The notes under the pieces are model-generated. The model saw only the letters and a program-made list of their open reading frames with translations. It was not told the origin of the DNA and made no database searches. This document shows positions 24,251 to 48,293 of a stretch of 64,000 nucleotides of DNA, in pieces (position 1 is the first letter of the stretch; each line of letters starts with the position of its first letter). The position numbers and the translations under genes are program-made. The DNA is from Rhodothermaceae bacterium (GTDB lineage Bacteria; Bacteroidota; Rhodothermia; Rhodothermales; Bin80). Where the stretch lies: the NCBI GenBank assembly GCA_009838195.1, contig VXSC01000011.1, positions 62,001 through 126,000 of the forward strand. Reading direction: 5' to 3'.

Positions 24251-27200
24251 ATGTCACATATACCGCGAGATTCTCCAGTTGCGATTGTGGCGTACGGTTA
24301 CCGGATGCCCGGGGGGATCCGTACCGACTCGGACTTCTGGCAACTATTGTCCGAGCGCGAGATCGTCCGGGAACCCATCATTGACAGGTATGGCAGAGGG
24401 TATCGTCCAATCGGCCAATTTTCTGGCCCAGGACGGTTTGCCAGCCCGTATGAAGGCCTCATTCGCGAGGATGGCGAGAAGCTGATCGACCCCAAGCTCT
24501 TCGGCCTGTCACAGGACGAGATGCTTTTTATGGATCCCCAGATACGCATGCTGCTGGGTTGTTCCTGGGAAACTTTTGAGCGTGCTGGCTGGGATTTTCA
24601 TTCGCTGCGCAACAGCTCCACTGGTGTTTTCATTGGCGCACAGGTGCCGGCCGTGGCCAGCTGGCGACCAATGCACGGCGCGGGACCATTCGATGTCACT
24701 ACGATCAGTCTCGCGATGCTCGCCAATCGCATTTCCTACCATTTTAATCTGATGGGGCCGTCCGCTACATACTGCACGGCCTGCTCCGCAAGTATCACTG
24801 CGCTTCATGCAGCAATATCCGCGATCCGATCTGGCGACTGTAAACAAGCACTTGTGGGATCGGTGAATTACCTGGGCACCTCTCGTCTCAGTGCCTCCTT
24901 CAATGCCCTGGGGGTCATCAGCCCTGACGGCAAGTGCCACTCTTTTGATGCCGACGCGAACGGCTATATCCGTTCGGAGGGGGCGTTCATCTTCGCTCTC
25001 AAACCTCTACAGGAAGCCGAAAATGACGGCGACCACATCCACGCCGTCATTGAAGCAACTTCCGTTAACGCGGCGGGGGCAGCTGACGGGAGTAGTGGAC
25101 TGGCACAGGGACGCTATATCACCGCACCCACCCGTCATGCACAGGTAGACCTGATGCGCACCGCCTGTGCTCGTGCGGGGCGCACACCCGAAGAGTTCGA
25201 TTATGTCGAAGCGCATGCGACGGGAACTGTCGTCGGTGATCGTATAGAGGGCAATGCAATCATTGAGGCCTTCGGTGGGATTGACCGCGGCGTGCCACTG
25301 CGGATTTCGAGCGTGAAGAGCAACTTGGGGCATATGGAAGCGGCGGCGTTTCATTGCGCTCTACTAAAAATCATCCTGATGATGCAGAGGCGTACTTTTG
25401 CGCCTACGTCAAAGAACTATGTCGTTCCGAACCCCGAGATAAATTTTGAAAACGGTGCTGTGCAGGTGCAGACTGTCTGCGAGGCGTTCCCGGAGCGACC
25501 AGTCGTGGTCGGCATCAACTCGTTTGGGTTCGGCGGTGCCAACGGACATTGCGTGATTCGAGAATACCAACCATCACGCCCGCGCATCTGGTCATCCGAT
25601 CTGTCCCCGGATGGGGGGAAGATGATCCCACTCTCGGCGCGCACCAATGAAGCACTCACGCGAAGCGCACGACAGTTGCGGGAAATGCTCGCAGAAGATG
25701 ACACCGACCTCTATACAATCGCAGGCAACCTTTGTCGGCGCCGTACACATTTTGCAACGCGAACAGCTTTTGCAGTACATGATCGCAACGAGCTACTGGC
25801 ATCCCTAGACGAGTTCATTGAGAACGCATCAGGCGGAACAACCGTTAGGGAAGGGGAACAGCGAATCGCGATGATGTTTGCAGGACAGGGCACCCAATGG
25901 TCCGGTTGTGGCCGGGGACTGTATGACGCTGACCCCGTTTTCCGTAGAGTGATTGACGCAGTTGAGGGCCATTGGAAGGAATTTTCAGATGTCTCGCTAC
26001 GCGACATTTGCTTCAACGCTCCCCAAGAAGAACTCGACGAGGTTCGATTTGCCCAGCCGGCAATCTTTATGATCCAGTGCGCCCTCTTTGAGCTTTTTAA
26101 GACCTGGGGGGTACATCCAGAATGCGTCATCGGGCATAGTTCAGGCGAGGTCGCTGCTGCCTATGCCTCTGGCATGCTGTCGCTTGCAGAGGCAACGCAA
26201 TTGGTCTACCACCGCGCTACCCTTCAGCAGTGTGTGGCCGACTCGGGTCGAATGCTCGCCATCGGCTTGGATCTCTCAGGCGTGGAAGAACTGCTTGATT
26301 CGCTCGGTATCGCTTTTCGGCCTGACGAGAACCGGCCAACCCAAGTGGAGATCGCCTGCGAGAATGCACCAGCAAGTGTAGTCATTTGCGGCAAGGAAGC
26401 AAAGCTGAGACCGATCATGGCGGAACTGGATCGCCGGAATCTGCAAAACCAGTTGCTTGCAGGCAATATCGCGTTCCACTCCTCCGCCATGGACCCCATC
26501 CACGATGATGTGCAGCAAGCTCTGTCTTTTTTGGATAAGAGCACATTTGATGGCAGCATCCCTTTCATTTCTTCCGTGACCGGCAAGCAAACGGAGCGTC
26601 TAGATGGAGCGTACTGGTGGACAAATATTCGGAGACCCGTGCAGTTTGCCCAAGGGGTCAGCACAATTATGCGTGATTTCAAGCCCGATATATTTCTTGA
26701 GATCTCCCCGCACGGTGCACTTCAATCGGCAGTCAGTCAATGTCTCGAACAGGCATCGCCAATTCCGGTCCGCATTCCAAGCCTCTATCGAAATTCGGAT
26801 GATCGGCTCGGTTTCCAACAGGCGCTGGCTTCGCTCTTCAAATCCGGCGTGGCTCTGGATTTCGCAGCTCAGTACCCGCGGCCCAAGTCCATTTCCCATC
26901 TACTTCCTGGACATCCTCGGGACAGGCAGGCGGCGATCAACATCCTCAGCGATGACGAATTCTTCGTCCAACAAGGCCAATACTCTCATGGACCACTGAT
27001 TGGGCACAGAGTACCGAGCGACCACCTTCTCTTCGAATCCCGGCTCTCCGTGAAGGACTTCCCCTGGTTAGCAGACCACCGCGTGCACCATGCTGCGATC
27101 ATGCCTGCTGCCGGCTATATCGAACTGATCCTTCAGGCCTTCGAAGGCGTTTCTGTTCACTTCGAAGTGCTTGAATTCCTTCAGCCGTGCCCGATTCCCA

Positions 27201-30200
27201 GGACACCTGTTCGGCTCCAGACTGCCCTGCGACCGGTCTCCAATACCCGGGACGAGTTTGCGTTCACAATCTCGTCCCGATCATACGATGTCAACGCTAC
27301 CAGCGAGGTCCACTGCCGTGGACGAGTAAAGCTGAGTAATCCAGACCACCCCATTGGTGTTCCGGCCCGGCTTGAGGATATTGACCGATCCTCATGTGAG
27401 ACTGTATTCGCGAAGCAGAGTGATTTCTACGAACGGATTGAGGCAGTCCTCAGCGAGACCTTCCAGTATGGGCCACACTTCCAGACCATACAGCTATTTG
27501 AGTTACAACCCGAATCTAGAGCTTTGATCGTTGACATTGAAATGGACCAGGAGCTCTGGACGACGGGGCAGCAAGAGGGGTATGTAGGATGTCCACCACT
27601 GCTGGATGGAGGACTCCAGATCTTCCTGTCACACCTGTTGACGGCTTCACATTTATTTGCGATCCCGCAGAGAGCCGAGAGAACAACATTTCTGCGTCCG
27701 CCCACCGGCCCACAGATTACATGTTATGTGACCAGGCCCAGTGAAGACTGGATGGATGCGAACGAGCGAGGCCAGTACTCAGTGCAGCGCGGAGAACGGG
27801 CCGCCGGTGCAATCAGTTTCTATGACCGTACTACAGGAGACCTCATCCTCCACATTGATCAATACGTCTATTTCACCTCCAATCCGCGCTGGAATGATCT
27901 ATTGAACAGCAAGCATGAAATCGCCTGGCAACCGAAATTCATCCATGAAGACCTGTCTTACCTTGACAGACTCCCCACAGGGGAGATCGACCCCGCCGCG
28001 TTGATCGTTGCCCTAGAAAAGTCAGAGGGTACACAAGCATACAGCTGCCATGTGGCCGAGTTTGCCGGATCACGGGAACCCGATCAAACTATCCTATCCA
28101 AGTGTCTGGATTATCTAACGAGTTCTGATGCTCGGTCCGAGTTCTGGCTCCTCAGCGATAATGAGGAAACGACCCGAGCCCACTTTGATGCCTTCAGCCA
28201 ACGGGATGCCGCGCTTCGCTTTCAATGTCTTGATCCGGAGGCCGCACCCCCAATGGATAACGGTCTTCTTCGCCCCGGCGGCGCGGAAATCGTGTTTTTG
28301 CACGGACCGGACGACCTGCCCAGCCCCGACGGCTGGCGGTTCCTGCGTCAGTTGGTTGTCAACGGCGGGCTAGTGCTGATCTGCCACGATGAAGATGCCG
28401 TAGTCAAGCCGGATGAAGAGTGGTCAATTGTTAGATCCGGCCCAGCTTGCACCCTGCTGCAAGCACCATGCACCCACATAGGCGAAGAGGCAGGCGATCC
28501 AATTCCAGGCCCACATTGGGTACTGGGAGAGCCAAACAGTTGGGCATCGGAGTGGATTTCTCTTCTGGACGCACCCGATACGGTGCAGCCAATCCCGCAT
28601 GAGGCAGTCATCCGTGGGCAATTCGACTCCGTCCCGGCATGGTCAGAGGTGGCTGACGTCCTTGCAATTGACTTCTTCTGTGGTTCCGACCCGAGTGATC
28701 CGACCGGCCAGAGGGTAACTGCGCAGTTGATCGCATTCGTGCAGGCACTAGTATCCGCTCGGTTGGCAAATGCAAATTGTCTGTGTCAACTCACCGTGAT
28801 CACCCAACGCGCAGCCTTTGATGTGCAGCATCCACGGGGATCTGCCCTGTGGGGGGCAATACGCAGTATGGCCATGGAAGTCGGCGACGAAGCAAAGCTC
28901 GATTTCCGCCTAGTTGACCTCGGTGGATTGGATGATCTAAAGACCCTAAGCTGGCTAGCTCGCAACGACTTGCGTGAGCGGGAACTGGCGGTCCGAGAGA
29001 ACCGCTTATGGGTACCACGAATTGCCAGTATTAGAGAGCGATATTCCCATGTGACGGCGGATAGCGATGCAGTATACCGCCTCACACTAGATAATCCGGG
29101 CCAGATTGCCGGGCTCGAGATGAAAACGTACAGCCTCCCTGCCCTCGGACCAAACGATGTGGAAGTTGATGTCGAAGCAGCAGCTCTCAACTTCCGCGAC
29201 GTAATGGTCACCCTGGGCCTACTGCCCGCATTGGCTTATGAGCGCTCGGCGCTCGGGCACCAGGTTGGCATGGAAGGCAGTGGAACCATTCGGCGGATCG
29301 GGGCGCAGGTACGGCACTGCTCAGTTGGTGACCAAGTCGCGTTTATTGCAGGTGGTTGCATCGCCAACCGTGTGGTGATCCCCGAATACCTCGTCTTTGC
29401 CAAACCCAATGGGCTCAACATGGAGGAAGCTGCATCTAGCTTGTCGGTATATGTTACAGCCTACTATTCTCTCATCTACCTGGCCCGCCTTCGGAAGAAT
29501 CAACGCGTGCTCATCCACTCCGCCATGGGTGGGGTCGGCCACGCGGCGATGTCAATCGCCAAACATGTTGGTGCACAGATCTACACCTCAGCCGGTAGCG
29601 AAACCAAGCGCAAACAGCTATTGGCAATGGGGGCGCAGGAAGCCTTTGATTCTCATAGCTATGACTGGTATGAAGACCTTATGATGGCAACCGATGGGGA
29701 GGGAATAGATGTCGTGCTGAATTCGCTGGCAGGGCGCCATATTGAGCTATGCCTGCAAGCACTTCGCCCCGGCGGCTGGCATTGCGAGATTGGCAAAACC
29801 GATATTTATGCCGACAATCTCCTCCGAATGCGCATGTTCCGCAAGAACCTTCGCTTCGCGGCTATTGATGTGGACCGCCTGATGCTTGACGACCCCCGGC
29901 TAACGCGTGAGCTCTCTAAAACCTGCATGGACCTACTGGATCAGGGTACCCTTTCCCCGCTCCCGGTCACTACGTTCCCTTACAGGGACTACGGAAAGGC
30001 CTTGCGTTTGATGACAACCGGGCAACATCAGGGCAAGTTGGTCTTAAAGGCCCCGCAGAACTCCGCAGATCCCGGATACCCCATCTCGGACATCCGACCA
30101 CTCTTTGACGAGGATGCAACCTATCTTGTAACCGGTGGACTGGGCGGTTTTGGGCTCCGCTTGATCTCTTACCTTGTGGCATCCGGCGCGCGGCACTTGA

Positions 30201-31348
30201 CTTTACTTGACCGTGATCCTCAGCGTCGCCGTGATGCGGAATGGGTTCGTCGCTCAAGTGCACTTGTCTACATGGATACCGAGTGTGAGATTGAAATCAT
30301 CTCTGGAGACGTCGCGATTGAAGCCGAGGTGCAACGCTGTGTCCAACAGATCAAGCGACCGTTGAAGGGTGTGTTTCATCTGGCCGGTGCGTTGGATGAT
30401 CGTTTGCTTGACGACATGACAATAGAATCTCTGCAGAGTGTCTTTGCACCCAAAGCTTCCGGTGCACTGTACCTCCATAATGCCACAGCCGACCACTCCC
30501 TTGATTACTTCGTCCTTTTCTCGTCCACGGCTTCGATGCTAGGCAATCCGGGGCAGATCAACTACAGTGCAGCCAACGGTTTTCTGGATGGACTGGCCAT
30601 TGCCCGCCACCAACAGGGTCTGCCCTGTTTGACCTACAACATGCCTGCTGTCGCTGATGCCGGTATGGCTGCACGCAGTCTCCCGGTGCTCCGAATGATG
30701 CGGGCAATCGGTATACCACCGGTAAGTTCCGATCTTGCGATCGCAAATCTGGATTACGCGTTACGTGCAATGACGGACCGCCCCCATCTCGTTACATCGC
30801 TCTTTGAGCGACCGACATGGACCGTCAACTTCCCAGATTACATGCGGATCGGGCGTGTTATGCACAATCATGATGCATTTGAAGCCGCCTCCGACGATGA
30901 ACTTACTCTCGAGAGGGTTGTGGAGCAGATCGCTGCCAAAGTCGCGGAGTTGTGTGGTTATGAAGAAGGCGAGGTGGACGAGCCATTGTCAAGCTTTGGA
31001 CTGACGTCTATTTCGGTCGCCGAGCTCGGGACCTTCATCCAGTCTGAATTCAACTACCGTGTGAGCGCTCTCGAACTCATGACTACGGCCTCATCCCTAT
31101 CACTGGCACAGGGTATCATCGATGGCAAGAAAGATGCTACCCGGGATGAGAGTGAACTAGGTGATCCGACATCCCAAACTGTTTCCGAGGCTTCTTGGCC
31201 ACGGGCCCCGCGTGTTCCCTCCAGTTTTGCGAACACCCTAGAGGATCACTTGCCCACGAAGGCTTCTCAGGCCTCTGACAATGGCTCCAGTCCCATCCCT
31301 TCATTAAAGGACTCAGCCCATATAGACTCATTGGAAGAGGTCTCATAG
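24251..31348 (+). CDS. Single-module highly reducing type I polyketide synthase
   Basis: The 2365-residue multidomain enzyme reads KS-AT-DH-pseudoKR-ER-KR-ACP. KS (residues ~10-430) has Cys178 (TACSAS), His322 (EAHATGT) and His361 (KSNLGHMEA). AT (~538-860) has Ser630 (GHSSGE) and an IAFH motif closer to malonyl (HAFH) than methylmalonyl enzymes. DH (~890-1180) has His943 and Asp1119 (LLDGG), but the Gly of HxxxGxxxxP is His. Residues ~1180-1610 lack a methyltransferase glycine motif and end in the structural pseudo-KR pattern (GSALWGAIRSMAME). ER (~1614-1934) has an AMGGVG NADPH loop. KR (~1955-2190) has TGGLGGFG, Tyr2105 and a B-type LDD motif. ACP carries Ser2253 (FGLTSIS). A Ser/Pro-rich tail of ~75 residues follows. 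There is no thioesterase; the downstream reductase-sulfotransferase probably releases the product. No phosphopantetheinyl transferase is seen nearby. Confidence 0.96.
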   Translation: MSHIPRDSPVAIVAYGYRMPGGIRTDSDFWQLLSEREIVREPIIDRYGRGYRPIGQFSGPGRFASPYEGLIREDGEKLIDPKLFGLSQDEMLFMDPQIRMLLGCSWETFERAGWDFHSLRNSSTGVFIGAQVPAVASWRPMHGAGPFDVTTISLAMLANRISYHFNLMGPSATYCTACSASITALHAAISAIRSGDCKQALVGSVNYLGTSRLSASFNALGVISPDGKCHSFDADANGYIRSEGAFIFALKPLQEAENDGDHIHAVIEATSVNAAGAADGSSGLAQGRYITAPTRHAQVDLMRTACARAGRTPEEFDYVEAHATGTVVGDRIEGNAIIEAFGGIDRGVPLRISSVKSNLGHMEAAAFHCALLKIILMMQRRTFAPTSKNYVVPNPEINFENGAVQVQTVCEAFPERPVVVGINSFGFGGANGHCVIREYQPSRPRIWSSDLSPDGGKMIPLSARTNEALTRSARQLREMLAEDDTDLYTIAGNLCRRRTHFATRTAFAVHDRNELLASLDEFIENASGGTTVREGEQRIAMMFAGQGTQWSGCGRGLYDADPVFRRVIDAVEGHWKEFSDVSLRDICFNAPQEELDEVRFAQPAIFMIQCALFELFKTWGVHPECVIGHSSGEVAAAYASGMLSLAEATQLVYHRATLQQCVADSGRMLAIGLDLSGVEELLDSLGIAFRPDENRPTQVEIACENAPASVVICGKEAKLRPIMAELDRRNLQNQLLAGNIAFHSSAMDPIHDDVQQALSFLDKSTFDGSIPFISSVTGKQTERLDGAYWWTNIRRPVQFAQGVSTIMRDFKPDIFLEISPHGALQSAVSQCLEQASPIPVRIPSLYRNSDDRLGFQQALASLFKSGVALDFAAQYPRPKSISHLLPGHPRDRQAAINILSDDEFFVQQGQYSHGPLIGHRVPSDHLLFESRLSVKDFPWLADHRVHHAAIMPAAGYIELILQAFEGVSVHFEVLEFLQPCPIPRTPVRLQTALRPVSNTRDEFAFTISSRSYDVNATSEVHCRGRVKLSNPDHPIGVPARLEDIDRSSCETVFAKQSDFYERIEAVLSETFQYGPHFQTIQLFELQPESRALIVDIEMDQELWTTGQQEGYVGCPPLLDGGLQIFLSHLLTASHLFAIPQRAERTTFLRPPTGPQITCYVTRPSEDWMDANERGQYSVQRGERAAGAISFYDRTTGDLILHIDQYVYFTSNPRWNDLLNSKHEIAWQPKFIHEDLSYLDRLPTGEIDPAALIVALEKSEGTQAYSCHVAEFAGSREPDQTILSKCLDYLTSSDARSEFWLLSDNEETTRAHFDAFSQRDAALRFQCLDPEAAPPMDNGLLRPGGAEIVFLHGPDDLPSPDGWRFLRQLVVNGGLVLICHDEDAVVKPDEEWSIVRSGPACTLLQAPCTHIGEEAGDPIPGPHWVLGEPNSWASEWISLLDAPDTVQPIPHEAVIRGQFDSVPAWSEVADVLAIDFFCGSDPSDPTGQRVTAQLIAFVQALVSARLANANCLCQLTVITQRAAFDVQHPRGSALWGAIRSMAMEVGDEAKLDFRLVDLGGLDDLKTLSWLARNDLRERELAVRENRLWVPRIASIRERYSHVTADSDAVYRLTLDNPGQIAGLEMKTYSLPALGPNDVEVDVEAAALNFRDVMVTLGLLPALAYERSALGHQVGMEGSGTIRRIGAQVRHCSVGDQVAFIAGGCIANRVVIPEYLVFAKPNGLNMEEAASSLSVYVTAYYSLIYLARLRKNQRVLIHSAMGGVGHAAMSIAKHVGAQIYTSAGSETKRKQLLAMGAQEAFDSHSYDWYEDLMMATDGEGIDVVLNSLAGRHIELCLQALRPGGWHCEIGKTDIYADNLLRMRMFRKNLRFAAIDVDRLMLDDPRLTRELSKTCMDLLDQGTLSPLPVTTFPYRDYGKALRLMTTGQHQGKLVLKAPQNSADPGYPISDIRPLFDEDATYLVTGGLGGFGLRLISYLVASGARHLTLLDRDPQRRRDAEWVRRSSALVYMDTECEIEIISGDVAIEAEVQRCVQQIKRPLKGVFHLAGALDDRLLDDMTIESLQSVFAPKASGALYLHNATADHSLDYFVLFSSTASMLGNPGQINYSAANGFLDGLAIARHQQGLPCLTYNMPAVADAGMAARSLPVLRMMRAIGIPPVSSDLAIANLDYALRAMTDRPHLVTSLFERPTWTVNFPDYMRIGRVMHNHDAFEAASDDELTLERVVEQIAAKVAELCGYEEGEVDEPLSSFGLTSISVAELGTFIQSEFNYRVSALELMTTASSLSLAQGIIDGKKDATRDESELGDPTSQTVSEASWPRAPRVPSSFANTLEDHLPTKASQASDNGSSPIPSLKDSAHIDSLEEVS

Positions 31349-31350
31349 CC

Positions 31351-33105
31351 ATGCCGAATACGCTCCTCATTTATCCAAAGCATCCCCCCACATACTGGGG
31401 AAATGAATTTTCCTTGGATCTACTGGGCATCCGAGCGGCATTTCCTCCACTCGGCCTGCTTACAGTCGCCGCAATGTTTCCACCCCGGTACGACCTCCGT
31501 TTGGTGGATTTGAATGTCACTCCACTGAGAGACATGGATCTGGAATGGGCGGATCTGGCCTTCACATCGAGTATGATCACACAACGCCCATCACTTGACC
31601 AGATCATCGAGCGATGTAACCGTGCACAGGTTCCCGTCATCGCTGGTGGACCGCACCCCACCACTTTTCATGAAGAGATGGAGGGGGTTGCCCATTTTGT
31701 GCTTGATGAGGTTGAGGAGACCTTCCAGGATTTCCTTCACGACTTGGAAAAAGGAACCGCAAAGCGGATTTATCGGGAACCGAGAAAGCCGGATGTAACC
31801 CTGACTCCCCTTCCCCGCTTTGACCTGATCAACATGAACGACTACTATTCAATGAGTCTTCAGTTTTCGCGGGGATGTCCCTTTGATTGTGAGTTCTGCG
31901 ACATCACTAAGCTGTACGGCCGCGTGTCCCGAACCAAATCGCCTGAACAAATGGTTGCCGAGTTTGACCATCTGTTCGAACTTGGATGGCGCGGACCTCT
32001 GTTCCTAGTTGACGATAATTTCATTGGCAATAAGCGCGAAGTTACACGGCTTCTCCCCGTGATAGCCGAATGGCAACAGGAGCGTGGCCACCCCTACAGC
32101 CTGTCTACCGAGGCGAGTGTCAATCTCGTTCGGATGAGCGACTTGATGGATGTCATGATTGCGGCGGGCTTTGACACCGTCTTCTTGGGCATTGAAACGC
32201 CCAACCCGAAGGCTCTTGAGAAGATGAAGAAGCCTCAGAACATCAACATGCGCGACGACAACTACCTGTTCAAGTCTGTGCGAAAGATTCAACAGAAGGG
32301 GATGCAGGTACAGGGCGGCTTCATCCTAGGCCTCGACGAAGATGATGAGAGTGCCTTTGATGCTCAGATCGAATTTATACAGGAGACTGGAATCCCGATT
32401 GCACTCGTTGGGCTGTTGACCGCACTCAAGGGAACCAACCTCTGGGCACGTCTAGAGCGCGAGGACCGGCTGCTTGACACACCTATTGAAATTAATGCGA
32501 CCTCCCTGAACTTCAGGCCGGAAATGGATCCCAAAACACTGGTTGAGGGATATCTGCGTGTCATTGGGACCATATACGACTCGACGCTGGAAAACTATTT
32601 TGATCGATGCCTGACCTTGCTGGAAAACCTCAATCCGGTACCACATCTCCATAAACCTGTGAGCCAACATGCACTGTATGCGGGCATTATGGGAATCCGG
32701 CAGCGCCTGACACCCCAGCAGTTACCGGCCTTTTCGCGGTATATTGCCAAGGTTTCTAAAGATCACCCTCGCCTGTTGCCCCTTGCGATTCGGCTGGCAG
32801 CTACAGGCCACCACTGTGAGAAGTTCTCCCGTCAGCAGACCATCATCCGCGAGTTCAAGGAGTATCTAACCTCAGAGTTGACAAGAATGAACGAAGACAT
32901 GTCGCAGCGCAAGTCAGCACCGGAGGCAGCAGACAAGCTCAAGCGGGAAGCGTTGCACCGAATCAATGCGCGTAAGAAAGCTATCCCCGAGGAATTCCGC
33001 TACACGGGGGACGGTATTACTGAATCTGTTTCGGATTTTCAACTTGCATTAGACACCATATTCGACGGGACTCCCGTAAACGGCAATCTTCCGGTTCTTA
33101 ACTAA
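31351..33105 (+). CDS. B12-binding radical SAM enzyme (DUF4070-type)
   Basis: This 584-residue protein starts 2 bases after the polyketide synthase stop, so translation is coupled. Residues 1-~150 form a cobalamin-binding fold (PPLGLLTVAAMFPP, VIAGGPHPTTF). The radical SAM core follows with the iron-sulfur ligands Cys176, Cys180 and Cys183 (CPFDCEFC), LVDDNFIGNK, FLGIETPN and GFILGLDEDD, and the C-terminal third resembles DUF4070. Relatives of this layout include lipid and hopanoid methylases such as HpnR. Methylation or another radical modification of the polyketide chain is the natural inference, but the reaction cannot be read from the sequence. Confidence 0.9.
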   Translation: MPNTLLIYPKHPPTYWGNEFSLDLLGIRAAFPPLGLLTVAAMFPPRYDLRLVDLNVTPLRDMDLEWADLAFTSSMITQRPSLDQIIERCNRAQVPVIAGGPHPTTFHEEMEGVAHFVLDEVEETFQDFLHDLEKGTAKRIYREPRKPDVTLTPLPRFDLINMNDYYSMSLQFSRGCPFDCEFCDITKLYGRVSRTKSPEQMVAEFDHLFELGWRGPLFLVDDNFIGNKREVTRLLPVIAEWQQERGHPYSLSTEASVNLVRMSDLMDVMIAAGFDTVFLGIETPNPKALEKMKKPQNINMRDDNYLFKSVRKIQQKGMQVQGGFILGLDEDDESAFDAQIEFIQETGIPIALVGLLTALKGTNLWARLEREDRLLDTPIEINATSLNFRPEMDPKTLVEGYLRVIGTIYDSTLENYFDRCLTLLENLNPVPHLHKPVSQHALYAGIMGIRQRLTPQQLPAFSRYIAKVSKDHPRLLPLAIRLAATGHHCEKFSRQQTIIREFKEYLTSELTRMNEDMSQRKSAPEAADKLKREALHRINARKKAIPEEFRYTGDGITESVSDFQLALDTIFDGTPVNGNLPVLN

Positions 33106-33129: not shown

Positions 33130-35634
33130 ATGCCTGAATTGAATACTTTGCACGCGGAGGTCCCGCCACTCACGGGAACCCTGCCGCCCCAATGTCGACA
33201 GGATCTTGATTCGCTACGGCGATTCATTAACCAAACGACCAGCTATTCATCCATAGACGCCCCTGTCAATCCCTCGGATTTTCGGGAAGTTCTGCTTACA
33301 GGGGCGACCGGATTCCTCGGCCGCTTTTTGCTGAGAGATCTTTTGCGTCGAAACCCCGACCTGACGGTTACCTGTATCGTTCGGGCGGATCATTCGCAAC
33401 ACGCTTTCTCTCGAATCCAAGCCGCTTTCGAAGAGGCGGAAATCTGGGAGGACGAATTTGCTCCGCGCATACGTGCAATGGCGGGAGACGTCCATCTCCC
33501 GAGTTTCGGCCTGGAGCCGTCCCAATTCGCGGATTTCTACCAGCGGATTGACGCCGTGTACCACCTTGCCGCGAGCCTGAGCGTAGCGACTCCCTACGTC
33601 GCTCTACGCAAGATCAATGTGTTCAGCATCCGCAGCGTACTCGAACTGTGCCTAACGACGCGCCTGAAACACGTCTTCTTCGCGTCGACCATGGGGGTTT
33701 TCCCCGAATACTTCTGTGGTTTCGCGAACGAGTACTCCGGCAGCCGTGTCACGCACCAGATGCAGCCGGACATCGCGAGCATGAAGCGTGCCTTTCCTCT
33801 CGGCCTGCTCGGGTATCCGTGGACCAAGGTGGTGGTCGAGCAGGCCCTGCTTCATGCGGCCCGGACTGGGGTGCCGGTAGCTCTATTCCGCCTGCCACAC
33901 ACGAATGTCGCGAGTACCGGTTTCGGCAATGCCGACGATGTCGCGGTGCGAACGGTAGCCGCGGTAGTGGACTCGGGACAGATGCCGGAGGGGTTCACGC
34001 TGCAATGGAGCCAGGCGGCAGTTGATGTCGTCGCTGACACCATGGCGGCTATCTCGATGAATCCCGATCGGCGCTTCACGATCTATCACTACTCCGAAGA
34101 TCCACCCCTAGGACACGAGATGCAGCTTGCCGACTTCGGACTGTACTATAAGACCGTGCCCTACGATGCTTGGAAGCGGGCCTGTCTGGCTCGGGGAGAG
34201 CGGTCACCCCTCCACGGATTCTGGAATCTGATCGATCACGGCGCGCCCTACTGGTTCAGCGGGGACGCGACCGCTCCGTCCCATCGCGTCTGCAGCCGTG
34301 CCTTGCAGGCCGATTGTCTGGACCCGATTCCGTGGCCGAGCGCGTACACCATGCTCCGGCGTTCCCTCGACTGGTTGCGGGCGCATCGTGAGAAATGGCC
34401 GTACCGCATACCCGAGAGCCGTCTCGACTACGACCAACTCGTGCGTCGAGCCGAATCGTTCGCGCGCGAATACGATGTCCCCTTCGGCGTGGCATTCCCC
34501 GCCTGGAAACTCGAGGGACTCAGGCAGCTCGTGCAGGCGGTGAACGCCCCGGAGGCCGGTGTTCGGACCGAAAGACACGACTATATCGCCTTCGATCTCA
34601 CCCGCCGCTTGCGCAACAATGCGTCCTTGGAAGCCGAGCGCCGCCGCTGCCCAGAGATTGCGGAACAGGACATCAGGCGGCCGGTCTTCATCGTTGGAAT
34701 CAACCGGACCGGCACAACCCTTCTGCACCGCCTGATGTCTCGTGACCCGAGGTTTTGGACGCTGCGCGGTTACGAGTATGTCGAGCCTGTCCCGGCGGGC
34801 GGCAACTACGCCATTCCGGCCGACTCGGCCGAAGATCCGCGGCGAGCCTTTGCGGAAGAACTCCTGAACGCGTCGGGAATCGTTGACATGTTCAAGGGAG
34901 TGCATCATTTCGACGTGGATGAACCAGAAGAGGACCTTGGGCTACTCAGAATGGGGTTTGCCGCTTGGGGCGCGACCGTTTGGTTCGACATCCCGGACTT
35001 CGCTCGCTGGCTTGCCTGCAGGGACATGTCGGAGACCTACGCCTTTCACCACCGCGCATTGCAGAACTACACGCATCAGCGGAGAAGCGACGGGGAGGGA
35101 CAGTGGGTACTGAAGGCGCCCTTTCACCTTTTCGAACTGGAAGCGCTAATTGCGACGTACCCCGATGCCCTGTTCATTCAGACTCATCGTGAGCCCGCTC
35201 AGTTCATGGGATCCTGGTGCAGCCTCGTCGACCGGGTCCGCAATCTCTCCTGCCAGCCCCGCCAGTCTGAAGATCTCGGGAAGGAACAACTCGAATTCAT
35301 GCGCCGCATGCTTGACAGCATGGTCAAGTTCCGCACGAACCACCCCGAACTGGAAGATCGCTGGTTGGACATCAGTTTCTACGACCTGGTCCAGGCTCCT
35401 ATGGACATGGTTGCCCATATTTACAACCGTTTCGGGTGGTCGCTGGAGGAGGAGGCCGTGGCCGCCATGGACGCCTGGCTCGAAGCACAGGCCGCTCAGC
35501 GGCGAAGCGAAAAACGGCACAAATACGAGCTTGCCGACTTTGGCCTGACGCGTGACAAGGTCGATGCGGCCTTCTCGCACTATCGTGATTTCCTCTCAAG
35601 CAGTGGGATCCGATCTTCCATGCTTTTGAAATAG
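33130..35634 (+). CDS. Thioester reductase-sulfotransferase fusion protein
   Basis: Residues ~50-390 are a thioester-reductase type extended short-chain dehydrogenase: NADPH loop TGATGFLG (57-64), YHLAAS, and the catalytic pair Tyr229/Lys233 (YPWTK). Such domains release carrier-protein thioesters as aldehydes or alcohols. Residues ~430-834 are a Sulfotransfer_3-type PAPS-dependent sulfotransferase: 5'-phosphosulfate loop RTGTTLLHRL (Arg526-), 3'-phosphate site THREPAQFMGSW (Arg687, Ser695), and the C-terminal KYELADFGL shared with the separate sulfotransferase at 45844. No carrier or adenylation domain is present. Base composition is visibly GC-richer than the synthase (39 of 60 bases in the line from 34441). 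The predicted role is to release the synthase product and sulfate the resulting hydroxyl. Confidence 0.9.
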   Translation: MPELNTLHAEVPPLTGTLPPQCRQDLDSLRRFINQTTSYSSIDAPVNPSDFREVLLTGATGFLGRFLLRDLLRRNPDLTVTCIVRADHSQHAFSRIQAAFEEAEIWEDEFAPRIRAMAGDVHLPSFGLEPSQFADFYQRIDAVYHLAASLSVATPYVALRKINVFSIRSVLELCLTTRLKHVFFASTMGVFPEYFCGFANEYSGSRVTHQMQPDIASMKRAFPLGLLGYPWTKVVVEQALLHAARTGVPVALFRLPHTNVASTGFGNADDVAVRTVAAVVDSGQMPEGFTLQWSQAAVDVVADTMAAISMNPDRRFTIYHYSEDPPLGHEMQLADFGLYYKTVPYDAWKRACLARGERSPLHGFWNLIDHGAPYWFSGDATAPSHRVCSRALQADCLDPIPWPSAYTMLRRSLDWLRAHREKWPYRIPESRLDYDQLVRRAESFAREYDVPFGVAFPAWKLEGLRQLVQAVNAPEAGVRTERHDYIAFDLTRRLRNNASLEAERRRCPEIAEQDIRRPVFIVGINRTGTTLLHRLMSRDPRFWTLRGYEYVEPVPAGGNYAIPADSAEDPRRAFAEELLNASGIVDMFKGVHHFDVDEPEEDLGLLRMGFAAWGATVWFDIPDFARWLACRDMSETYAFHHRALQNYTHQRRSDGEGQWVLKAPFHLFELEALIATYPDALFIQTHREPAQFMGSWCSLVDRVRNLSCQPRQSEDLGKEQLEFMRRMLDSMVKFRTNHPELEDRWLDISFYDLVQAPMDMVAHIYNRFGWSLEEEAVAAMDAWLEAQAAQRRSEKRHKYELADFGLTRDKVDAAFSHYRDFLSSSGIRSSMLLK

Positions 35635-35746: not shown

Positions 35747-36664
35747 ATGGCTGACAAACTAAGCTGGAGCCGTGAACCTATGTCATTTTCCAAACGCCAC
35801 GGCTATGAGCCACTTCCTGAATGTATGCGCCTAGAGTACCTGTCCGAGCAGGCAAAAACCGCGGTATACAACATCATTGCTGATATCGTGTTAGTCTCAG
35901 GTAACTGGGCAGGTATGGAAAGCTTCCCTGCACCTAGAATGTGTCGTCGCGCCATAGCATCGTGCCTCAACAAAAATATACTTGAAGTCCAAGTCTCAAG
36001 GGATGAAATTTTAGACGAGCTGCGATCCATTGTGTACGAGTTGTCATTCAATAAGGCGCTGGATCTACTGGAGTACATGGCCAACTATCAGGATGATCAA
36101 ATCAGATTTGGGGGATCTCAGGAATTAAATGTTCGACTTTCACGATTCTCCCAAGACATCAACAACGCCTTTGACGAACACGGAGTAGCATACGTGTTTG
36201 ATACCTCTAATAGGCCTTACCATATCTGGCCAAGAACTTCAATGGAACAGGGCGTGACCATTCAAAATGCTGTGGCTACATTGAAACATCATGAACTATC
36301 TTCACCTGTTACACACCTGCGAGATGCGGCATCTCATCTGGATTCACGGCAATACTCCGATGCAATTACAGACAGTATACACGCAGTTGAGTCTGTCGTG
36401 CGTATTTTCGATCCAGACAATTGTCGGAAGCTCAGCGATGCCGTAAACTCTCTTAGGAGACGGGGCGTGCTCAAGCACCAAGCCCTTGCCGAAGCAATCA
36501 AATCACTTTACGGCTATACTAGCGACGAAAAAGGCATTCGAAAAGCGTTGGTCTTTGATCCGAAAGCCAATGTTGACATTAATGACGCTATGTTTATGTT
36601 TGGGGCATGTGCATCTTTGGCAGCTTACTTGGCGAATATCTGTCACCCGGAGGGGGAAAGCTAA
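35747..36664 (+). CDS. AbiJ-like protein (AbiJ-NTD4 plus HEPN-like C-terminus)
   Basis: The N-terminal region starting MSFSKRHGYEP matches the AbiJ-NTD4 pattern (FSxRxGY near the start), found in single-gene abortive-infection defence proteins. The C-terminal half (residues ~195-300, VTHLRDAASHLDSRQYSDAITDSIHAVESV ending in CASLAAYLANI) resembles the HEPN-like Abi C-terminal domain. The family's conserved GIRH element reads GIRK here, so the usual catalytic His of a HEPN RNase is missing. ATG 35780 would start directly at the conserved motif and is an alternative to 35747. It is AT-richer than the polyketide genes upstream and followed by AT-rich inverted repeats. A phage-defence role is inferred from the family. 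Confidence 0.7.
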   Translation: MADKLSWSREPMSFSKRHGYEPLPECMRLEYLSEQAKTAVYNIIADIVLVSGNWAGMESFPAPRMCRRAIASCLNKNILEVQVSRDEILDELRSIVYELSFNKALDLLEYMANYQDDQIRFGGSQELNVRLSRFSQDINNAFDEHGVAYVFDTSNRPYHIWPRTSMEQGVTIQNAVATLKHHELSSPVTHLRDAASHLDSRQYSDAITDSIHAVESVVRIFDPDNCRKLSDAVNSLRRRGVLKHQALAEAIKSLYGYTSDEKGIRKALVFDPKANVDINDAMFMFGACASLAAYLANICHPEGES

Positions 36665-43796: not shown

Positions 43797-44774
43797 TCAG
43801 GTGACAGTCTTGAGCCAGGCTTCCGACTGGTTCCACAGCATTTTCGCGGCGGACATCTGTCTGGCCTGTTCGCTTGGTCTGGCAATCTTGCAGCGCTCGT
43901 AGTAACATCCGCCATGTAGCGCAGGAGTGCTAGAGCACATTACCACGGTTTGTGCCCCATATTTCCGGTGCAACAATACCAATGATGTCATGGCAGAACT
44001 CATGCGGTTCAAGGTGCTGCCGATTCGTCCAGTCATCGGCTTCATTTGTGTAAGGTTCGTGTGAACGGACCCAGGATGTAGTGCTACGGATCGCAGATTG
44101 AATTCCTTCGAAAACTGTCGGTTGATCTCGACTGAAAGATGGATGAGTGCCAGTTTCGACGTCCCGTACGCATTCCAGGAATGGTAGCGTTTCGTACTAT
44201 CGAATAAGTCCTCATTACTCACGCTGTCATGTAGATGAGAGGATACGTTTATCACCCGAGCATCGCCGTCTTCCAAGCCACTCTGTTTTAGACATGGGAG
44301 CAGCAGATTCGTCAGATGGAAGGGTCCTAAATAGTTGGTTCTCCAGTGAATTTCGAAGCCATCCTTGGTCAGGGGCGGCTTTCGTCGTGGACGGAAGATA
44401 TTCTTGTGGATACCCGCGTTGTTAACCAAAACATGAAGCTTTCCGTCATACTCGCGAAGAAACCAGGTTGCAAAACTGGAAGTGCTCTTCACATCACACA
44501 GGTCAAGCGTTCTGGCCATGATGTTGCCATCGGCACCTGTGCGTTGTAAATCATTCTTAAGGCACGTTTCGGTCGTTTCTGCGTCATGCAGACTGGTAAC
44601 GATAACGTGTGCACCCCAACTCGCAAGGATCTTGGCAGTCTCATACCCAATGGAATTGGGAGATGCGCCCGTCACAATGACCGTCCGACCGGACATATCA
44701 ACACGTTCTGCCATCGGCTTGCGCATGCATAGCAACCAAAGGTGACGAACCGACTTGGCAAATGTATGGGGCAT
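43797..44774 (-). CDS. Short-chain dehydrogenase/reductase (operon copy 1)
   Basis: The 325-residue protein has a Rossmann start VIVTGASPNSIGYETAKIL (an altered TGxxxGIG loop with extra residues), VLVNNAGI, VINVSSH and the catalytic YGTSK. The N-terminal 25 residues precede the fold, and the C-terminal extension is Cys/Arg-rich. It is closest in pattern to retinol-dehydrogenase/WW-oxidoreductase-like SDRs that act on lipid alcohols or ketones. It lies 22 bases downstream of the second SDR gene on the same strand. The substrate is unknown. Confidence 0.88.
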   Translation of the reverse strand: MPHTFAKSVRHLWLLCMRKPMAERVDMSGRTVIVTGASPNSIGYETAKILASWGAHVIVTSLHDAETTETCLKNDLQRTGADGNIMARTLDLCDVKSTSSFATWFLREYDGKLHVLVNNAGIHKNIFRPRRKPPLTKDGFEIHWRTNYLGPFHLTNLLLPCLKQSGLEDGDARVINVSSHLHDSVSNEDLFDSTKRYHSWNAYGTSKLALIHLSVEINRQFSKEFNLRSVALHPGSVHTNLTQMKPMTGRIGSTLNRMSSAMTSLVLLHRKYGAQTVVMCSSTPALHGGCYYERCKIARPSEQARQMSAAKMLWNQSEAWLKTVT

Positions 44775-44796
44775 TTTCTGCAGTGATAATATGGCG

Positions 44797-45792
44797 CTAG
44801 AGCTTTGCCATCAGTTCCGCACTGGCTTCCCATAGCCTGGAGCCATTCTCTGGATCGGAGGCACTTGGCGAAACAGATTTCCGTTGCATCAGGTGCAAAT
44901 ACATCCCCGTGCTATAGCCCGCTTCTTCGGAACAGCACAGATAAATTGCCGGCTTTACAGCCTGTTCTGGAGATTGCAAGAGATACCGCAGAAGAGGCTT
45001 GACTACGGGCTTGAGCGGTGTCGGGGTATCCCTTGCAATGTTCGAAGCAATACCTCCGGGACACATTGAATGTACCGCGACTTCGATACTGTCGCCTTGA
45101 TTCAGGCGTCGGGAGAGCTCGGTGGCGTACGTACACTGAAGTAGTTTACTGATGCCGTAATGTCTGAGACTATCCTTCGTTTTGTAATCTTTGAACGTAC
45201 CCAAATGATCAAACTCAATGACATGGGAGGATCGGTGTGCCTCGGATGCGACAAATATAATTCGCGGTGTCTTTCCAGGGTGTCTGGATGGACGAATCAC
45301 CCCATCCTTCAACCACCGATCAATCAGTATACGTGAAGAGAGGAAGTGTACAGTAAACATCATCTCAAATCCTTGTGGGGATTTTCTGGCTCTGGGAGGC
45401 ATCAGTCCAGCATTCATCAGTGCAATATCAATGCGGATTCGGCGAGATGCCATCAAGTCACAAAGGTGATGGACGGATTTGACGTCTGCCAGGTCAACTT
45501 CCATCAATTCTATGTTCGAAGATCCAGACAGCCTCTGTATTTCCTGACAAATTCCTCCATGCCCGGGCCGACAGGCTAAAATCATATTTCCTCCGCGCCG
45601 CGCAAGTTCAACCGCAGCAGCTTTCCCAAGGCCGCTATTGGCTCCGGTCACCAGACAGGTCCTGCCGTCAATTCGGATATCTTCGGGAACCATGGTAACT
45701 TCAGCGTGCTTCGGCTGCCTGAGATCTCGGACAGCAGCAACCATCGCACTGAAGGGCGTGCCATCTCCAACTAATTTGGATTTTTTCTTCAC
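44797..45792 (-). CDS. Short-chain dehydrogenase/reductase (operon copy 2)
   Basis: This 331-residue SDR has CLVTGANSGLGKAAAVELARRG (residues ~46-67), the NAG motif (LMNAGLMPP), IIFVASE and the catalytic YGISK. Like its neighbour it belongs to the retinol-dehydrogenase-like branch but is clearly a different subfamily, since similarity between the two is limited to the core motifs. It lies 51 bases after the sulfotransferase gene on the same strand. Two SDRs in one operon could oxidise and reduce the same lipid at different positions, or interconvert a hydroxyl needed for sulfation; this is inference. Confidence 0.88.
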   Translation of the reverse strand: MKKKSKLVGDGTPFSAMVAAVRDLRQPKHAEVTMVPEDIRIDGRTCLVTGANSGLGKAAAVELARRGGNMILACRPGHGGICQEIQRLSGSSNIELMEVDLADVKSVHHLCDLMASRRIRIDIALMNAGLMPPRARKSPQGFEMMFTVHFLSSRILIDRWLKDGVIRPSRHPGKTPRIIFVASEAHRSSHVIEFDHLGTFKDYKTKDSLRHYGISKLLQCTYATELSRRLNQGDSIEVAVHSMCPGGIASNIARDTPTPLKPVVKPLLRYLLQSPEQAVKPAIYLCCSEEAGYSTGMYLHLMQRKSVSPSASDPENGSRLWEASAELMAKL

Positions 45793-45843
45793 GGAGTCCT
45801 CAATTTTGACCTGAACTGCTCGTACAAGATCAAGTCAGATGAT

Positions 45844-47106
45844 TCATTCAAACGGGATCGTGTATTTCTCACGGTAGCCAGAAAAATGTTCTTCGATGAC
45901 CTCCTCGCTCAACCCAAAATCATTCAAGCTATAGGAATGTCGCCCAAAACGATTTTGCGGATTGGCCTTGATATACTGTCCTGCCTGCCGCACTGCTTCG
46001 TCATCAAAATTAATTCCGATCCACTCATAGATCTCCCGAAGCTGGGTTACGGGATCCGCAATCAAGTCGTAATAGGACACATCCATGAACCGGTCGGTCT
46101 CTTCACCGGATCGAACCATTTCGGTGACTTCAATCATTCTGCGTATTTTCCGGCACCAGTGTCGCGCAATTTCTTCGGGATCCACCTGATCACTAAAAAT
46201 ACCTCGACCATGTGCAACCATACTACAAAATGACGGCAAAGCCTTTCGTGGATCGCGGTGGGTCAGTACAATTTTCGCATCTGGGAAAGTATTCAGAAAT
46301 ATATCCAAATACTCCATGTGATTTGGAGTCTTCAGCACCCATTGACTACCCGGACGCTGCCAACACAGAACTTTCAGTACCCCGCGAAGAAATTCGTAGG
46401 CCTGGGTATGGTCCTGATCCTCCAGCCAACGCGAATACGATGGAACGTGCATCGTCGCCTCCGGTGATTGACTCATAAAACTCAGGTCCAACAACATAAC
46501 ATCTTCCTCCGGCTCACGACGGCTGATCGGGTGTATCGACTTGAATTGTGGTGACAAATAGGAGATTGCCTGATGCGCCATGAATGAGTAAAACTTGCGG
46601 CTGAAAGTCCCACGCCTGTTCATGTTACCCGCCGGGACTGGTTCAAGCAGTTCTCCCCCAGAAATGCCACGGATGGCAGGATTGGTATTCAATAAGCGTT
46701 GGAGTAGTGTCGTGCCAGTACGCTGCAGCCCAGTAACAAGAATGATTTTGCCAAGATCAACCTCATTTATTTCAGGGTGCTTTCTGAGTAGATCCCTGAT
46801 CCGAAAACGATGAACCAACGCGCGGGTGAGTCGAGATTTTTGTACTAGCCTGCCGGTGGCAGTCAGACGAGCTTCGTCGTTCATTGATTTGACCAGCACT
46901 TCCAGGGCCTCGAAAAATTTACTATCGCCCAAATCTTCCAGTCCCGTTATTCGTTTCGCCTGCTCTACAAGTACCTCGGCCTCCAAATATCCTGGCGGGC
47001 CAAATCTCCCACTCAGACCGTTATAAACTTTGATAAAGAACGGGCGATAGGGACGCTCATAGTCCGTTGTTGTTACGAAGTCGCTCTTGCCCATCTCTTG
47101 CCACAC
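45844..47106 (-). CDS. PAPS-dependent sulfotransferase (Sulfotransfer_3 type)
   Basis: The 420-residue enzyme has a helical N-terminal region (residues 1-110), the 5'-phosphosulfate loop RTGTTLLQRL (Arg129-), LLEPVPAGN, the 3'-phosphate-binding THRDPRKALPSF, and a C-terminal SYSLNDFGLSEE. It is homologous to the sulfotransferase half of the fusion protein at 33130 (shared RTGTTLL, EPVPAG, and the C-terminal DFGL element). Sulfo group transfer from PAPS to a hydroxyl, probably on a lipid or isoprenoid, follows from the family. The first codon is GTG, 2 bases after the DUF1214 stop; an ATG four codons in (47094) is an alternative. Confidence 0.9.
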   Translation of the reverse strand: MWQEMGKSDFVTTTDYERPYRPFFIKVYNGLSGRFGPPGYLEAEVLVEQAKRITGLEDLGDSKFFEALEVLVKSMNDEARLTATGRLVQKSRLTRALVHRFRIRDLLRKHPEINEVDLGKIILVTGLQRTGTTLLQRLLNTNPAIRGISGGELLEPVPAGNMNRRGTFSRKFYSFMAHQAISYLSPQFKSIHPISRREPEEDVMLLDLSFMSQSPEATMHVPSYSRWLEDQDHTQAYEFLRGVLKVLCWQRPGSQWVLKTPNHMEYLDIFLNTFPDAKIVLTHRDPRKALPSFCSMVAHGRGIFSDQVDPEEIARHWCRKIRRMIEVTEMVRSGEETDRFMDVSYYDLIADPVTQLREIYEWIGINFDDEAVRQAGQYIKANPQNRFGRHSYSLNDFGLSEEVIEEHFSGYREKYTIPFE

Positions 47107-47108
47107 GA

Positions 47109-48293
47109 CTAACTCTTACGGCTACTCAACTTGACCAATTGGGTATGGGGTTGAGGAGATTCCTGCGCTCGTACCCACCGAAAGCACATAGTCCCAGAAG
47201 AGTGACCAGCGGTATCTAGCCAGTTGGGCAGGCCCGGATCTTCATGTGCGACAACCAGCCTTACGAAGTTGTCATCTTCATAGTGTGCCAGATGCTTATT
47301 TGTGTGAATCCTATGATATCGGTAATCCAGAGATTCCATCCAGTAATTGTTCAACTGAAAATTCCAGTATTCACATTCTGGGGGCGTAACCTCAATCAGA
47401 AGAGCCTCGTCCTCTGCAATCGCCCAGTGACTATGATAATAGGTGATGTTTGGATCGCCTCCAGCGGCCCGTGAAACTTTTGGATCAAACATCGGCAACA
47501 TGTTGCTGTGTTTCTGGAAATCCCGCGCCCACTTGGAAAATAATAACGGTGCCCCTGCTACCAATGCTCCTGCCTTTTTCAATCCTTCATCAAGCTTCAC
47601 AGGTGTTAATGGGGCGGGGAGTTGCTCATGTTCTGGACAGTTAATGCGCTCAATCCGCAATTCTGCGGGAGTCTCTACTGTCCGATCAAGGAAAGTTTGA
47701 CGCACAACCAAAGTGCCCGTCTCGGTGGTCATGGGTAGCCAATTCCCCGATTGAGGCTTGGAACTGAGGATAAGTTCGAATCTCCCGCTTGCATCCATTT
47801 CGATCTCATCCGATTCAATATATCCTGTAGGTGGCAAGCCGCGACCCTGACCATAATGGCCGGATTGAGTACCAAAGCTCAAATATGCAATCGTATTTCG
47901 CTGCCCATAGATCTTGTACTCATAGTTTCCGTTCAGCGCAGCTGTTTGATAGAAATTGTCTGGATTGTCGGCACCCAGTTTAGTCACCTCATCAACTACT
48001 CGATGCAAGACAGGTGCGTTGGTATCCGCATGTTCGACGAACGCCATAAGGCCTGCACGGGCGATACGACTGAGGTACCGATACCCTTCCGCCTGATTGA
48101 ATGGATCCTGTGGAGCACCGGGGAATTGTAGTCCAGCACCCGCCGCCTTAAGAGAATCACAGAATTCGTCCCAGGTTTTTCCACTGACGATCCGGTGAGC
48201 AGCTACGTCCTCTACCGTCCGACCACGAAATCGCCGGATCAGGAGGGACATTCGTCGAAAGAGGCTTAGGAGACCAATGCCGAGCTTGCGCAT
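47109..48293 (-). CDS. DUF1214-domain protein
   Basis: This 394-residue protein ends in the DUF1214 pattern (AEDEALLIEVTPPECEYWNFQLNNYWMESLDY, followed by DPGLPNWLDTAGHSSGTMCFRW), a beta-rich domain of unknown function that is common beside DUF1254 or sulfotransferase genes in marine bacteria and mycobacteria. No signal peptide is convincing; the basic N-terminus may be a weak membrane association. It is the first gene of the five-gene minus-strand operon (DUF1214, sulfotransferase, SDR, SDR, SRPBCC). A role in handling a hydrophobic substrate is plausible but unproven. Confidence 0.85.
   Translation of the reverse strand: MRKLGIGLLSLFRRMSLLIRRFRGRTVEDVAAHRIVSGKTWDEFCDSLKAAGAGLQFPGAPQDPFNQAEGYRYLSRIARAGLMAFVEHADTNAPVLHRVVDEVTKLGADNPDNFYQTAALNGNYEYKIYGQRNTIAYLSFGTQSGHYGQGRGLPPTGYIESDEIEMDASGRFELILSSKPQSGNWLPMTTETGTLVVRQTFLDRTVETPAELRIERINCPEHEQLPAPLTPVKLDEGLKKAGALVAGAPLLFSKWARDFQKHSNMLPMFDPKVSRAAGGDPNITYYHSHWAIAEDEALLIEVTPPECEYWNFQLNNYWMESLDYRYHRIHTNKHLAHYEDDNFVRLVVAHEDPGLPNWLDTAGHSSGTMCFRWVRAQESPQPHTQLVKLSSRKS

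Follow-up and report, generated by a model that had tools for sequence, protein, structure and literature searches.

What can a bacterium make with a single protein that joins a thioester reductase (R) to a sulfotransferase (ST), and how did the gene for it come to lie in this genome? The question is raised by a reading frame in a 64,000-nucleotide stretch of DNA (the window) belonging to a 3.0 Mb MAG, the host of which is a Rhodothermota sponge symbiont according to the submitters' label of a MAG of the same genus. The original prediction held that the frame encodes a reductase followed by a Sulfotransfer_3 domain within one protein, and it pointed to TGATGFLG, a Tyr229/Lys233 pair and RTGTTLL; the coordinates, the domain order and the motif positions were all exact. 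The frame runs over 834 codons from an ATG start to a TAG stop without internal stops and comes last in an operon of three genes, arranged as A-C-B on one strand with intergenic gaps of 2 and 24 bases, in which all three genes are intact (Table 1).

Table 1. Features of the window, with positions counted from its first nucleotide.
Feature	Position	Strand	Description	Basis
swfA	24251..31348	+	KS-AT-DH-ER-KR-ACP mono-modular PKS, 2365 aa	Pfam, SwfA signatures
swfC	31351..33105	+	B12-binding radical SAM protein with DUF4070, 584 aa	Pfam (B12-binding, Radical_SAM, DUF4070)
swfB	33130..35634	+	Thioester reductase-sulfotransferase fusion, 834 aa	ORF call, Pfam, NCBIfam, motifs
swfB, R domain	33286..34200	+	Reductase, residues ~53-357	PF07993, TIGR01746, 4u7w alignment
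swfB, ST domain	34630..35589	+	Sulfotransferase, residues ~501-820	PF13469, alignment with 2zq5 and 2z6v
AbiJ-type gene	35747-36664	+	AbiJ N-terminal-domain 4 protein, possibly for abortive infection; immediately follows swfB	Pfam
Four-gene cassette	43797-48293	-	394-aa protein without Pfam match, 420-aa Sulfotransfer_3 protein, two SDRs	

Pfam places NAD_binding_4 (PF07993) at residues 56-304 (E 6e-48) and Sulfotransfer_3 (PF13469) at residues 518-773 (E 5e-34), both far over the cut-off. The NCBIfam thioester-reductase model TIGR01746 aligns with residues 54-357 (E 3.5e-56) over model positions 2-301 of 371, at 191 bits and thus below its curated cut-off of 213. When recomputed from the window, the motifs of the R domain are TGATGFLG at 57-64, Thr187 (in STMG), Tyr229 and Lys233, which together make up the Rossmann TGxTGFxG element and the Thr/Ser-Tyr-Lys set of an extended SDR, and those of the ST domain are RTGTTLL at 526-532, His592, Glu600, Lys662, His686-Arg687 and Ser695. 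On the strength of family knowledge and alignment with 4u7w, 2zq5 and 2z6v, these residues are predicted to serve as the NADPH loop, the catalytic triad and the 5' and 3' sites for PAPS. An incomplete catalytic site had been named as a possible flaw in the prediction, and the motifs of both domains are intact. In the PDB, the R half is matched best by the MxaA terminal reductase (4u7w; residues 49-350, E 2e-38), while the ST half aligns with 2zq5 and 2z6v, which we take to be mycobacterial structures. AlphaFold prediction for seven SwfB sequences, a set without the distant L035 and L036, gave a mean pLDDT of 34.5. Both domains are under purifying selection: dN/dS (Nei-Gojobori) against five relatives (L009-L013) was 0.09-0.17 in the R domain, 0.07-0.17 in the ST domain and 0.09-0.27 in the linker, with L035 and L036 excluded because their synonymous change is saturated.

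The neighboring genes indicate what the fusion is. The swf ("sponge widespread fatty acid synthase") cluster was described by Della Sala et al. 2013 (PMC3908369) as a mono-modular PKS (swfA), an R + ST protein (swfB) and a radical SAM protein (swfC), with Plakortis simplex and one Aplysina contig as sources and PCR hits in six more sponges. In the published SwfA KS signatures, DPQ[I/V]R and HATGT replace DPQQR and HGTGT. The window's SwfA carries DPQIR (95), HATGT (322), GHSSGE (628) and IAFH (740) exactly, and FAGQGTQW (543) and QCALFEL (609) are each one substitution off the published FSGQGTQW and QCALVEL. Both of these are exact at a related locus (L043), and the variation of QCALVEL given in PMC3908369 concerns its first and last residue only. 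SwfC has CPFDCEFC at 176, in agreement with the CX3CX2C pattern of the swf radical SAM protein, the gene for which is described as missing from one published cluster (PMC3908369). Because the SwfA signatures occur together with the published operon content, we file the fusion gene as the swfB of a swf operon. The source organism of swf was called unresolved in a 2014 update (PMC4245539), and swf-like clusters are described from Nitrospirota, Latescibacterota and Acidobacteriota MAGs, apparently independently of taxonomy (PMC9426513), as well as from 'Thalassonella' (PMC10227082). The Palauibacterales paper (PMC10469786) contains no occurrence of swf, and our search of the open-access literature turned up no paper assigning swf to either Rhodothermota or Gemmatimonadota, and none reporting its product.

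The fusion was found again in six named contigs at 81-89% identity, one of which holds residues 193 onward only. In the window's phylum, SwfB matches (E <= 1e-60) occur in 4 of 394 genomes, the window's own included; among 59 relatives, a single match over both halves was seen in four (G000, G004, G007 and G014) and a match in pieces in G012. The phylum of G418, the genome of locus L011, was represented by 395 genomes (the Gemmatimonadota sample), 35 of which match SwfB, 30 of them over both halves. This recurrence in six contigs and in 30 of 35 matching genomes argues that the fusion is the product of neither chance nor mis-assembly. We therefore rejected a chance domain match, and the assembly artefact against which the original prediction had been hedged is refuted by a both-half match in 30 of the 395 genomes of another phylum. 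None of the 92 stretches of viral contigs that fit the pattern encodes a relative, and in none of the 140 matching plasmid records does a single place align with 80% of the query.

In all relatives long enough to tell, swfA adjoins swfB or has swfC between the two. The A-C-B arrangement is found in the window and in L009-L013, A-B-C is found for example in L080 and L085, and L035 has A-B without an adjacent swfC, like the published PSA11D7. Gene order was counted in 20 loci, drawn from the 35 matches in the Gemmatimonadota sample; in the distant type (L077-L090), swfA lies beside swfB in 14 of 14 and at least part of swfC follows downstream within 1.5 kb in 8 of 14. Next to the complete swfA of L013 (G420), and apart from it, lies a further swfA-like gene that is partial and 58-70% identical. 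The window's genome contains just two Sulfotransfer_3 genes, swfB and that of the four-gene cassette, the product of which is 31-33% identical to the ST domain of SwfB; the cassette recurs in G004 (L106) at 65-84% identity, on a different contig from the swf genes of that genome.

We consider it probable that the operon as a whole makes a primary alkyl sulfate, with an acyl-ACP from SwfA being reduced by the R domain of SwfB and sulfated by its ST domain. As a single fully reducing PKS/FAS module, SwfA would build an acyl chain tethered to its ACP, presumably in repeated cycles, and SwfC may C-methylate that chain. SwfB would act in trans on the ACP-bound chain, its R domain using NADPH to take the chain off as an aldehyde and then probably as a primary alcohol, and its ST domain would transfer a sulfo group from PAPS to the new hydroxyl. 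Every chemical step, the order of the steps and the product are deduced here from sequence. Pfam finds no thioesterase in SwfA or SwfB, and since SwfA is without one, no domain for chain release other than R is seen in the operon. The window's genome has one APS kinase match and one ACPS-family phosphopantetheinyl-transferase (PPTase). The conversion of an acyl chain to a primary alkyl sulfate is also what PMC3908369 proposes for swf, and LC-MS showed no new compound when a whole cluster was expressed in E. coli BAP1 (PMC3908369); aliphatic sulfates have been reported from sponges (PMC6780655). The earlier reading of the pair, reduction to an alcohol followed by sulfation, was thus sensible and is partly supported, being the same as the published proposal, but the novelty that it implied does not stand, since the R-ST fusion, its partners and the alkyl-sulfate idea had been published before. 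What is new here is another bacterial host and signs of transfer between phyla.

It is possible, although we consider it unlikely, that the R domain performs a two-electron reduction and releases an aldehyde, and that the ST domain sulfates some other hydroxyl, such as one that remains in an incompletely processed chain, or an altogether different acceptor. R domains carry out two- or four-electron reduction and can stop at the aldehyde (PMC12783407), the product of the assayed R domain of CpFAS1 is not settled (PMC2995488), and SwfA-type modules could leave hydroxyls when reductive domains are skipped (PMC3908369). However, Pfam finds no separate aldehyde-processing gene in the operon, and the covalent linkage of R and ST is kept in 30/35 of the matching Gemmatimonadota-sample genomes, which favors a shared intermediate. 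Two considerations, and only these two, favor four-electron reduction: the similarity to the MxaA terminal reductase, the study of which reportedly speaks of primary alcohols in its title, and a fused sulfotransferase in need of an acceptor. Chemistry of the CurM/Ols kind, in which a beta-hydroxyl is sulfated as a leaving group for decarboxylative alkene release, is at odds with the PDB search, where the ST half matched no sulfotransferase other than 2zq5 and 2z6v at E <= 1, the CurM and Ols ST entries presumably being part of the searched set. CurM, too, has its sulfotransferase next to the domain that releases the chain (PMC3908369), and it had been put forward at the outset as the known relative in logic, but SwfB itself, known since 2013, is closer. 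With no thioesterase in the operon, and with a reductase acting at C1 and so removing the carboxylate that must be lost, we rejected alkene release as very improbable.

Some copies of swf have decayed in congeners of the window's genome. The copy in G004 (L009/L038) has frame breaks in swfA and swfC, and in G007 (L036) swfA is just 602 aa long within a 134 kb contig. Such damage could suggest that swfB in the window is likewise a non-functional relic, or else an artefact of assembly, and we find either scarcely credible. All three window genes are intact, dN/dS lies between 0.07 and 0.27 in every SwfB region against the five relatives, and from 48.6 kb rightwards the window shares synteny with G003 and G005; an artefact is rejected outright by the recurrence of the fusion in many independent assemblies.

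Loci L010-L014 are of Gemmatimonadota type by the submitters' titles, one being Ca. Palauibacter denitrificans, and L009 is the swf locus of the congener G004. Between the window and L010-L013, identity is 79-80% for SwfA, 81-82% for SwfC and 81-85% for SwfB, whereas the longest aligned pieces of RpoB reach 48.5% in G419 (1194 aa), 51.7% in G420 (929 aa) and 55.2% in G418 (837 aa), with short C-terminal pieces at 65-71% and N-terminal pieces at 45-47%. Between the window and G004, identity is 83.7% for RpoB, 71% for RNase G and 89% for SwfB. None of sixteen genes that flank swf in the window has a counterpart in ten swf stretches of eight genomes, matches between sulfotransferases excepted, although for G004 the comparison is narrow, as its contig leaves little flank. 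No further conserved neighbors were found beyond swf, which is weak evidence because the ORF picker takes wrong-strand ORFs in GC-rich loci. The GC3 of swfB is 0.709 (R 0.695, ST 0.716) compared with 0.46-0.61 in the 16 flanking genes and 0.84 in two Gemmatimonadota copies (L010 and L012); swfA (0.589) and swfC (0.595) fall inside the range of the flanks, and a compositional signal in swfB alone speaks less clearly for the whole operon. In a SwfB tree of 24 rows, the window and L009 (100/100) are joined by L010, L011 and L073 (97/95), and that group lies inside a clade of eight (100/100), every other member of which comes from the other phylum. Taken together, operon identity above that of RpoB, unshared flanks, the GC3 of swfB and the tree favor a recent transfer of swf between phyla, into the window's genus. 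It may also be that the window's genus and Gemmatimonadota both received swf from a common third donor.

By RNase G, the closest relatives are G003 and G005 (82-83%), which showed no SwfB match when the relatives' genomes were searched; their contigs stop some 1.9 kb beyond the NAD synthase gene, so that the site of swf would lie outside them. Their synteny with the window right of 48.6 kb places the window's contig in this genus. SwfC is 82-84% identical between loci where SwfB is just 38-53% identical to that of the window (L036, L080, L082, L085 and L090), and the tree of SwfC departs from that of SwfB; on both counts, swfC looks to have been exchanged independently of its neighbors. We hypothesize, tentatively and short of thinking it probable, that a complete alkyl-sulfate pathway has been passed between bacterial phyla that inhabit sponges, that this host recently received swf from a donor of high GC content, for instance a Gemmatimonadota symbiont, and that the methyltransferase-like swfC has been exchanged independently of swfA and swfB. 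If this is true, sponge microbiomes would have primary alkyl sulfates, perhaps with methyl branches, as a lipid in common, one that goes unnoticed in standard lipid work-up. Transfer across phyla would fit the apparent independence of swf-like clusters from taxonomy that PMC9426513 describes, and quantifies it for two further lineages. What swf makes has been a question since 2013, and the complete swf operons of MAGs, which show two of the gene orders already published and SwfB variants of about 38 to 89% identity, widen the choices for expression beyond the single failed attempt in E. coli.

Compared with published swf, the window operon has the same domain orders, including a protein of ~830-840 aa with N-terminal R and C-terminal ST, and the same A-C-B order as the Aplysina contig POR_0547-0550; the lengths given in PMC3908369 are 2349/2361 aa for SwfA (2365 here), 839/832 aa for SwfB (834) and 585 aa for SwfC (584). 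The host lineage differs, and the likeness is drawn from lengths, domains and signatures. Coccidian type I FAS also end in R-ST and are the only other contiguous R + ST proteins that PMC3908369 names; these are multimodular protist megasynthases with R-ST inside the synthase, whereas SwfB is a separate protein, and the two are likened by description. The MxaA terminal reductase (4u7w) resembles the R half of SwfB but has no sulfotransferase half. On Planktothrix agardhii plasmid p1 (L060 5566-13098), a PKS ends in ACP-TE-ST, the reverse of ST-TE in HlaB/CurM; as an example of SwfB-like architecture this match was rejected, being a PKS with TE and then ST in which Pfam finds no R domain. In CurM and the olefin synthases, as in SwfB, a PAPS-type sulfotransferase adjoins the release domain, but there it is a thioesterase that leads to decarboxylative alkene release, and in SwfB a reductase takes that place.
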